A program made the position numbers and the translations under genes. Shown here one piece after another: positions 20,137 through 39,905 of a DNA stretch of 64,000 nucleotides (position 1 is the first letter of the stretch; each line of letters opens with the position of its first letter). The notes below the pieces were generated by a model that saw only the letters and a program-made list of their open reading frames with translations, was not told the DNA's origin and made no database searches. The DNA comes from Halorubrum sp. DM2 (GTDB lineage: Archaea > Halobacteriota > Halobacteria > Halobacteriales > Haloferacaceae). The stretch spans positions 496,001 through 560,000 of the forward strand of contig NZ_LR594487.1 of assembly GCF_901686465.1 (NCBI RefSeq), read 5' to 3'.

Positions 20137-20219
20137 ACCCGAACGGCGCTCCCCCGCGACCTAAAAGGTGCGTCTGCGACGGCGACGACGTGGGAGATGT
20201 TGCTTATAAACGAGCGGTG

Positions 20220-20476
20220 TGCGGTGGCGCGCGCCTCCGAGCGCCCCACAGGGCGCGAGGAGTGCCGCGCGAGGGAGTCGGTCGCCGGAGCGGAGCGACG
20301 GCGACCGACGAGGCTGGGGAGGCGTGAGGTGCGGTTGCGGTGCGGGGTGGGACTCGAAGGGGCAGCCGGGAGGTGGACGCAGGCGATGTAAGCACCGCAG
20401 GGAGCGAACGAAGTGAGCGACCGAGGAGCGCAGCGAGCGTGCGTCCACCTCCCGGCTGGGGCTTCGGCGGTCTCGG
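20220..20476 (+). repeat. Structured repeat element, copy A
   Basis: A 257-bp element, starting TGCGGTGGCGCG and ending GGGGCTTCGGCGGTCTCGG. It has three hairpin regions: one near the 5' end, GTCGGTCGCC/GGCGACCGAC (20277-20286 with 20300-20309), and a long stem GCCGGGAGGTGGACGCA (20365-20381) with its exact complement at 20440-20456. Between the second and third stems lies a conserved core (about 20307-20367). TTATAAAC at about 20204-20211 could be a promoter. The adjoining sequence 20477-20639 has two more TTATAA sites and no gene. Frames through the element are chance ORFs. Confidence 0.75.
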
Positions 20477-20639
20477 TTACACCGTCAGTTTCGTTGTGTC
20501 GAGCGGCTGGGGCTTCAGAGGTCCTCAGCGTCGATTCTCCCTTACCGCGTTATAAGCAAATGGATACGGAGATACGGCTGCTTACCGTCGATCAACCCGA
20601 ATCTGCTTATAAATAAACTCCGGAGCCAAAGCCGTAGTA

Positions 20640-21014
20640 CTACGCGTTCACGAACGGTTCCCACCCCTCCCATCGGAGGAGCTTCTCAGCGCGGTCCGCG
20701 TCCGCCAGCAGGACGTTCTTGCTGTCCGGGAGCGTCTCGTCGGCGAGTTCCTGCGGGATCGCGAGCGTCCCGCTCGCCACGTCGTCGTCGCCGCCGACCG
20801 GAATGTGGCTGCCGCCGACTTTCATCACGAGCGGGGCGTCGAGTCGCTCGACGCCCTCGCCGTCCGCGTACAGCTGCTCGTTGACGTGTTCGTGGTCCGC
20901 CCGCCGGATGACGGCGCGCTCGCCGTCGTGGGGTTCCACGTACAGTTCCCCCAGGTAGTAGCCGCTTGAGAATCGCTCGAACATTCTGTGCGTGAGATAC
21001 TCTACCATGACCAT
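20640..21014 (-). CDS. Conserved haloarchaeal protein (DUF5802-like)
   Basis: 124 residues: MVMVEYLTHRMFERFSSGYYLGELYVEPHDGERAVI, then APLVMKVGGSHIPVGGDDDVASGTLAIP. A second ATG at 21008 is an equally good start. It looks like a small haloarchaea-restricted family that I associate with DUF5802; no catalytic motif is seen. It is the only gene between two oppositely oriented copies of the structured repeat. Confidence 0.78.
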   Translation of the reverse strand: MVMVEYLTHRMFERFSSGYYLGELYVEPHDGERAVIRRADHEHVNEQLYADGEGVERLDAPLVMKVGGSHIPVGGDDDVASGTLAIPQELADETLPDSKNVLLADADRAEKLLRWEGWEPFVNA

Positions 21015-21208
21015 ACATAAGTGTTTCTCGGACGTGCTCGACCGTGATAATCGGGGAGGGGGAGGGTGTCACAGAACAGTTCATCCGATGTCGTGTTCAG
21101 TATTCTCTATCCGAATCTCCTCGAAGAACGAACTCGGTTATAAGGCGGCTATTTCGAGAGTAGAGAAGGTATCAAGGGCAGAAGCGCTGCTGACGCAGTG
21201 AACACGGT

Positions 21209-21513
21209 CGCCGAAGCCCCAGCCGGGAGGCGGGCGCACGCTCGTTGCGGTCCTCGCTCGTTCGCGTTGCTCACTCGCTGCGGTCCTTACGTCGCCTGCG
21301 CCCGCCTCCCGGCTGCCCCTTCGAGTCCCACCCCGCACCGCAACCGCACCTCACGCCTCCCCAACCTCGTCAGTCGCCTGCGCTTCGCTCCGGCGACTGA
21401 CTCCAGCGAGAATCGAAGATTCTCTGGCAGCCGACGGCTCCGCCGCCGGCGACCTCGCGCGGCGCTCCTCGCGCCTTTAAAAGGCACTCGGAGGCGCGCG
21501 CCGCCGCACCGCA
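21209..21513 (-). repeat. Structured repeat element, copy B (inverted relative to A)
   Basis: A 305-bp copy on the minus strand. The long stem arms are at 21222-21238 and 21297-21313 (GCCGGGAGGCGGGCGCA and its complement), the second stem at 21369-21378/21392-21401 (GTCAGTCGCC/GGCGACTGAC) and the conserved core at 21311-21373. Compared with copy A, stem positions differ in matched pairs. It carries an extra hairpin-like insertion of about 50 bases relative to A. The region 21015-21208 holds no recognisable gene. Confidence 0.75.
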
Positions 21514-39619: not shown

Positions 39620-39905
39620 TGCGGTGGCGCGTGCCCGCGAGCGGTCGCCACCGGCGACCGCGAGACGGCACGCGCGAGGGAGTCGCGAGCGACCGGGCGA
39701 CCGAAGGGAGCCCGGAGCGAGCGACGAGGCTGGGGAGGTGTGAGGTGCGGTCGCTGTGTGGTGCGGGGTGGGACTCGAAGGGGCAGCCGTGAGGACGCCG
39801 GAGGCGACACAAGCACCACAACGAGGGAGTGAGTGAAACGAACGACCGAGTGAGGAGCACAGCGAGCGTCCGGCGTCCTCACGGCGGGGGCTTCGGCGGT
39901 CTCGG
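39620..39905 (+). repeat. Structured repeat element, copy C
   Basis: A 286-bp copy with the same ends as copies A and B (TGCGGTGGCGCG ... GGGGCTTCGGCGGTCTCGG). The long stem is GCCGTGAGGACGCCGGA (39786-39802) and its perfect complement (39869-39885), differing from copy A at five positions that all stay paired. A hairpin GAGCGGTCGCC/GGCGACCGC lies near the 5' end and the conserved core is at about 39721-39788. It lies between the divergent side of dgcN and the small gene downstream; no gene is inside. Confidence 0.75.

Follow-up and report, generated by a model that had tools for sequence, protein, structure and literature searches.

A folded three-hairpin repeat family of Halorubrum and other Halobacteria that probably works as DNA

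Architecture of the element and its copies in the window

The window, the whole 64,000-nucleotide stretch of the Halorubrum sp. DM2 genome that was analysed, contains three copies of a non-coding element of about 250 bases in which three hairpins (H1, H2 and H3) are arranged around an invariant core. Copy A (20221–20476) and copy C (39621–39905) lie on the forward strand and copy B (about 21209 to about 21513) on the reverse strand, and all three were confirmed as the first-pass annotation had described them. From 5′ to 3′ the element consists of GCGGT, H1, the joint GCGCGAGGGA, H2, the core GAGGCTGGGGAGGNNTGAGG, a spacer, H3 and the tail units. The pieces that are conserved across copies are GGCGCG, with which H1 opens, GCGCGAGGGA, which gives the joint GAGGGA between H1 and H2, and GAGGCTGGGGAGG.

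Copy A, delimited from its sequence and the family search, illustrates this order on the forward strand. H1 (20226–20271) has an outer stem, a tandem GA/GA and an apical GCGCCC/GGGCGC, and is followed by the invariant AGGGA of GCGCGAGGGA (20272–20276), by H2 with the arms GTCGGTCGCC and GGCGACCGAC (20277–20309) and by the invariant core GAGGCTGGGGAGGCGTGAGG (20310–20329). The variable spacer (20330–20354) is made up, as elsewhere in the family, of units resembling GCGGT or GCTGT and has GGGACT at its end. H3 (20355–20466) is built from a CGAAG/CTTCG base, opposed GGG tracts, a 19-bp stem with the arms CAGCCGGGAGGTGGACGCA (20363–20381) and TGCGTCCACCTCCCGGCTG (20440–20458), and a further folded tip. 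This stem had been reported as a perfect one of 17 bp; the pairing holds, though the stem is two pairs longer, and one of the two outermost pairs, which lay outside the earlier count, is an A·G mismatch in copy C. Relative to copy A the long stem changes at two pairs in copy B and at five in copy C, every change being compensated, and the H2 stem likewise changes in pairs (GTCGGTCGCC in A, GTCAGTCGCC in B), in agreement with the original description. The H1/H2 joint of copy B contains two inserted micro-hairpins, CCAGAGAATCTTCGATTCTCGCTGG and GCCGGCGGCGGAGCCGTCGGC (about 21402–21450, reverse strand); the former recurs in other copies and at one site in this genome far from any element.

The 3′ boundary is variable: the 3′ terminus is repeated in tandem zero to four times, in units of 51, 66 or 69 bp. 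The units nearest the element body are the most intact, and copy A carries one, a second, degenerating copy of the terminus with a period of 51 bp (20502–20516, forward strand). Tail units are almost never present without the element, for which reason the idea that they are pre-existing targets was dropped.

The two ends of the element, GCGGTGGCGCG and GGGGCTTCGG, do not form an inverted repeat, and no clean target duplication was seen at the sites inspected. No autonomous copy, with a gene between the core and the 3′ end, was found among the 39 copies that lack a nearby H3 base. Several copies carry a different repeat, GTCCCGCGAGCGACCGGAGGGAGCGAGCGGGA...CCGTCTTCCGG, inserted within their spacer or H3 (loci L104, L119, L291–L310 at about 449.2 kb in this genome, and L271–L290 in another, G016). 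The H3 base shows paired changes (TGAAG/CTTCA, CTGAAAG/CTTTCAG) in Halorussus, Halosimplex and Haloparvum, where tails are found as well. Each of the Halorubrum copies examined consists of one unit, not a doublet; inverted, REPIN-like doublets of the 5′ domain occur at two Halorussus loci (L144 and L151) and in a Halobacteriales MAG (L170). These doublets flank a palindromic centre such as TAGCTAGCTTC...GAAGCTAGCTA.

Distribution and genomic setting

A pattern search allowing up to three mismatches found 137 copies in this genome of 3,454,955 bp (G000), 69 forward and 68 reverse, and the reversed control pattern gave no matches in the same search; the copy number is far beyond chance. At least 40 of the copies are near full-length, with 81–90% identity. 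Every Halorubrum genome searched has the element (14–194 copies), including all of the first 34 relatives from the genus (15–182 copies each), and the family is hugely amplified in Halorubrum. Elsewhere in the Halobacteria it is patchy, with matches in 18 of 95 genera and 76 of 392 genomes of the order, and named records place further copies in Haloparvum, Halobellus, Halorussus and Halosimplex. The copy number in one genus, g17 (apparently Halorussus), varies between 0 and about 135, with one count raised by a 16-bp tandem array. In G092 the core GAGGCTGGGGAGGTTTGA is tandemly arrayed with a 16-bp period (C3:123163–123262), which inflates the count for that genome. A search of 72,556 plasmid records gave a single good match and two partial matches at E 1e-5, Halobaculum plasmids being among the carriers, and no copies were found in the phage sequences searched. 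Neither by topic nor by sequence string was a description of the element found in the accessible literature, though a subscription paper may have described it earlier.

The 130 copies analysed lie between genes predicted by a home-made gene caller that was masked over the element itself, and they are enriched in the gaps between convergent genes, which hold 44 of the 130 against 123 of 632 background intergenic gaps. The main chromosome holds all 144 of the exact copies listed from three multi-replicon genomes (p 0.07, 0.01 and 7e-5). Such an intergenic and chromosomal placement, with sites retained between species and occurrence throughout the genus, would suit a BIME-like chromosome-organising or protein-binding site, where cruciforms are bound by a nucleoid, topoisomerase or recombination protein and the host benefits. 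However, in three genomes runs tests show the copies to be randomly oriented and their spacing is Poisson-like, and the range of 14–194 copies within Halorubrum and 0–135 in g17 implies that no fixed dosage is needed; we regard this role as unlikely. The orientation list for the genome of the window, which does not cover all its copies, was left out of the strand statistics. An oriented chromosome signal was rejected because of the random orientation. A stretch of about 355 kb (G000:C1, about 1.02–1.37 Mb) has no element among the copies listed and is possibly an acquired region.

The spread and patchiness of the copies suggest mobility. It could be supposed that they are ordinary remnants of IS605-related PATEs or MITEs that a resident Y1 or DDE transposase once mobilised and that are now in decay, as they are non-coding, palindromic and numerous with no obvious target duplication, and PATEs are known in haloarchaea (PMC3119063). 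Yet the Y1 transposase (PF01797) is absent from seven of 39 Halorubrum genomes, which keep 16–129 copies, Y1 gene number and element number are uncorrelated (rho −0.13), and the surroundings of 30 Y1 loci show no enrichment of cores, with one observed and 4.0 expected. On these three grounds a resident Y1 transposase was rejected as a required partner. Moreover, the stems have been kept perfect and not decayed, and none of the copies listed from the three genomes is off the chromosome, so that an origin as decaying remnants seems very unlikely.

Pairing of the stems and the choice between RNA and DNA

The fold of copy A was better than those of all 200 dinucleotide shuffles, with z −6.0 as RNA and −3.9 as DNA. 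For covariation the arms were aligned without gaps, counting from the invariant anchors. At pair positions 7, 12 and 13 of H3 the two arms match in 94, 91 and 89% of 158 copies, each position showing several pair types, whereas 300 shuffles never exceed 61, 54 and 56%; owing to the kinship of the copies the shuffles alone overstate significance, a problem from which a control with slid arms is free. The whole H3 stem scores 0.78 in register and no more than 0.48 with one arm slid by 1–3 positions, and H2 scores 0.71 against at most 0.55. The stems therefore covary strongly, and the conserved fold, compensatory stems and invariant core described in the first-pass annotation are real. Much of the covariation between copies arises from replacement of whole hairpins, by cassette exchange or tip swap, and not from independent compensation. 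Thus, covariation alone does not show selection on RNA.

The element probably works as DNA rather than RNA. Wobble pairs are scarce, with 9 G·U and 10 A·C among 1370 cells of the H2 stems and 10 G·U and 7 A·C among 1339 cells of inner H3, so that G·U, at about 0.7%, is no commoner than A·C; the copies counted were picked for mostly Watson–Crick stems, which lowers both alike. In 33 tRNAs from the same and related genomes G·U makes up 6.1% and A·C is not seen. Strand asymmetry is also absent over most of the stems (H2 and inner H3). Only over the whole H3 stem does G·U exceed A·C (30 against 11, p 0.004), and the excess is confined to the basal six pairs. In the H2 hairpins of 180 copies GCGNAGC was counted 102 times, with all four bases found at N, as against only four GNRA loops and no UUCG, and d(GCGAAGC) is reported to be an extraordinarily stable DNA mini-hairpin with a Tm of 78 °C (PMC4686876). 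A tandem GA/GA mismatch flanks the apical hairpin of H1 in 129 of 163 copies. The scarcity of wobble pairs, the type of loop and the GA/GA all favour DNA, though each is compatible with RNA, in which triloops and GCGAAGC could also form.

A TATA-like sequence precedes copy A (20203–20210, forward strand), as had been noted; the one also claimed for copy C is not there. It is a minority feature, found within 45 nt upstream in 41 of 108 copies and nearly always 7–21 nt from the 5′ end. As the archaeal TATA-to-start distance is about 25 nt, a transcript begun from it would leave out the 5′ arm of H1, and a promoter belonging to the element was rejected because the TATA is too near the end and is restricted to a minority of copies. 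An Rfam search at the gathering threshold gave no match, so no named RNA family explains the element, and relaxed thresholds gave just chance-level miRNA and bacterial sRNA models (E 0.5–5). A stretch, GCGGTGGCGCGTGCCTG, resembles the 5′ domain of SRP (7SL) RNA; this likeness was dropped since no SRP model matched.

These observations bear on the proposal that the family is a multi-copy structured ncRNA, each copy being transcribed and selected as a folded regulator, 3′UTR element or protein-binding RNA. The strong RNA fold of copy A, the conserved unpaired core, the G·U excess at the base of H3, the TATA-like sequences and the preference for convergent genes would all fit, whereas the near lack of wobble pairs and strand asymmetry in H2 and inner H3, the position and rarity of the TATA and the empty Rfam search do not; on balance this is a possible but doubtful reading. 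Of the original statement that the repeat is a folded RNA or DNA and not a decayed IS, the fold and the rejection of a decayed coding IS were borne out, and RNA is the less supported option.

Stable sites, replaced hairpins and relation to known systems

When 400-kb stretches of this genome and of a second species, G016, were compared (198 kb could be aligned, at 89.8% identity), both had the element at 13 of the 16 sites that could be mapped, and its relative orientation was the same. For the nine fully parsed orthologous pairs the identity of the upstream flank is 0.756, against 0.599 for random copies, while the element interiors are scarcely more alike than random pairs: 0.744 and 0.704 for H1, 0.704 and 0.644 for H2, 0.81 and 0.80 for the core and 0.645 and 0.628 for H3. 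The site of copy C is filled in 14 of the 18 other Halorubrum species in which both flanking genes were located, and in most of them 18 or 19 of the 19 positions of the long stem are paired though the sequence differs. Between G016 and G021, which are 95.8% identical over 3.9 kb at this site, H1 and H3 are identical while the tip of H2 is wholly swapped between GCGGCGA and GAGCCGC, the replacement allele being also present at another G016 locus. In this genome 23 of 53 copies share their exact H2 with another copy while H1 and H3 differ, the same H2 allele being found again at loci that are otherwise unrelated. H1 and H2 show weak but significant linkage (r 0.34, p 0.0025), so exchange is not free. 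Stable sites with replaced hairpins point to hairpin exchange between copies, which fast evolution under structural constraint could imitate.

At the site of copy C in G031 (L183) the H2 tip CTCCGCGTTGCTCC is the reverse complement of the usual GGAGCAACGCGGAG, possibly a loop inversion, and L007 and L064 hold the element in opposite orientation in the same intergenic gap of two Halorubrum species. No insertion that was both precise and recent, with defined ends, came to light; at the three empty sites this genome and G016 differ by imprecise blocks. G016 has a 13-bp gap at the place where this genome (G000:C1, about 389.3–390.1 kb) carries a 766-bp block comprising the element and an ORF for a small membrane protein, and it lacks this block entirely.

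Joint change of both arms, replacement of whole tips and the faint trace of wobble intermediates might also be produced with no selection at all, if templated repair (quasi-palindrome correction) kept the palindromes perfect and the copies persisted neutrally. Palindrome correction would, however, remove the mismatched GA/GA that 129 of 163 copies keep inside H1; the core is more conserved than any other part, even though it is unpaired; and H1 and H3 are identical in G016 and G021 despite a 4.2% difference at the locus. Neutral persistence is therefore highly improbable.

The explanation we prefer, with a probability of about 0.5, is that of a non-autonomous, non-coding, Halobacteria-wide element of REPIN/PATE-like folded single-stranded DNA, the shape of which is kept by exchange of hairpin cassettes between copies. 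Its working form would be three hairpins linked by invariant single-strand segments. It may first have been spread by a trans-acting enzyme recognising the hairpins and these segments, as for REPINs and PATEs, and the fold would now be kept mainly by short-tract exchange, through ectopic gene conversion or re-homing, with the invariant segments as presumed exchange points; resident Y1 transposases would not be needed for upkeep. More tentatively, this may be a structure-specific exchange of hairpin cassettes among about 140 chromosomal sites, with crossover at the invariant single-strand segments and no integrase or transposase of a known family; we think this special form rather improbable.

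Integron attC sites are recognised as folded single-stranded DNA, with freely varying stems, short invariant boxes and exchanged cassettes. The Halorubrum element would resemble them in all these respects, but no integrase or gene cassettes were seen and the unit exchanged is the hairpin itself. With REP/REPIN/BIME sequences (PMC3116915, PMC8266576) it shares a non-coding, palindromic make-up, intergenic copies numbering over 100 per genome, conserved stem mismatches and a presumed action as folded single-strand DNA; inverted doublets are seen at the Halorussus and MAG loci above, the Halorubrum copies examined being single. REPs measure 20–50 nt, carry GTAG at the foot and are linked to a TnpA-REP gene (PMC3116915, PMC8266576), whereas the Halorubrum unit has three hairpins, a 20-nt invariant core and hairpins exchanged between copies, with neither the foot nor a linked Y1 gene (TnpA-REP/RAYT); a REP survey that included archaea sampled no haloarchaeon. 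The PATEs of Haloquadratum (PMC3119063) are likewise haloarchaeal and non-coding, with palindromes near their ends and no target duplication seen, and, as in the Halorubrum form, no terminal inverted repeats. Their palindromes match the ends of IS605-type transposons (PMC3119063). Here a search of Y1 loci showed no such linked transposon, cores adjoining them no more often than by chance, and copies are kept at orthologous sites genus-wide with the long stem intact in most. The SMR-A/B of Haloquadratum are also short and transposase-free, but they have terminal inverted repeats, are about 80–110 bp long and more than 95% identical, and target other mobile elements (PMC3119063), none of which applies here. 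Nor does the element have the terminal inverted repeats of a MITE or, at the sites inspected, a clean target duplication.

The element, for which neither an Rfam match nor a description in the literature searched was found, makes up about 1% of Halorubrum chromosomes. That covariation here comes largely through hairpin replacement calls for caution when covariation is used to discover RNAs in repeat families. If the element does act as DNA, the family would be a natural and abundant example of folded DNA that selection maintains in a cell with molar K+, and a case of concerted evolution among scattered sites in a polyploid archaeon.
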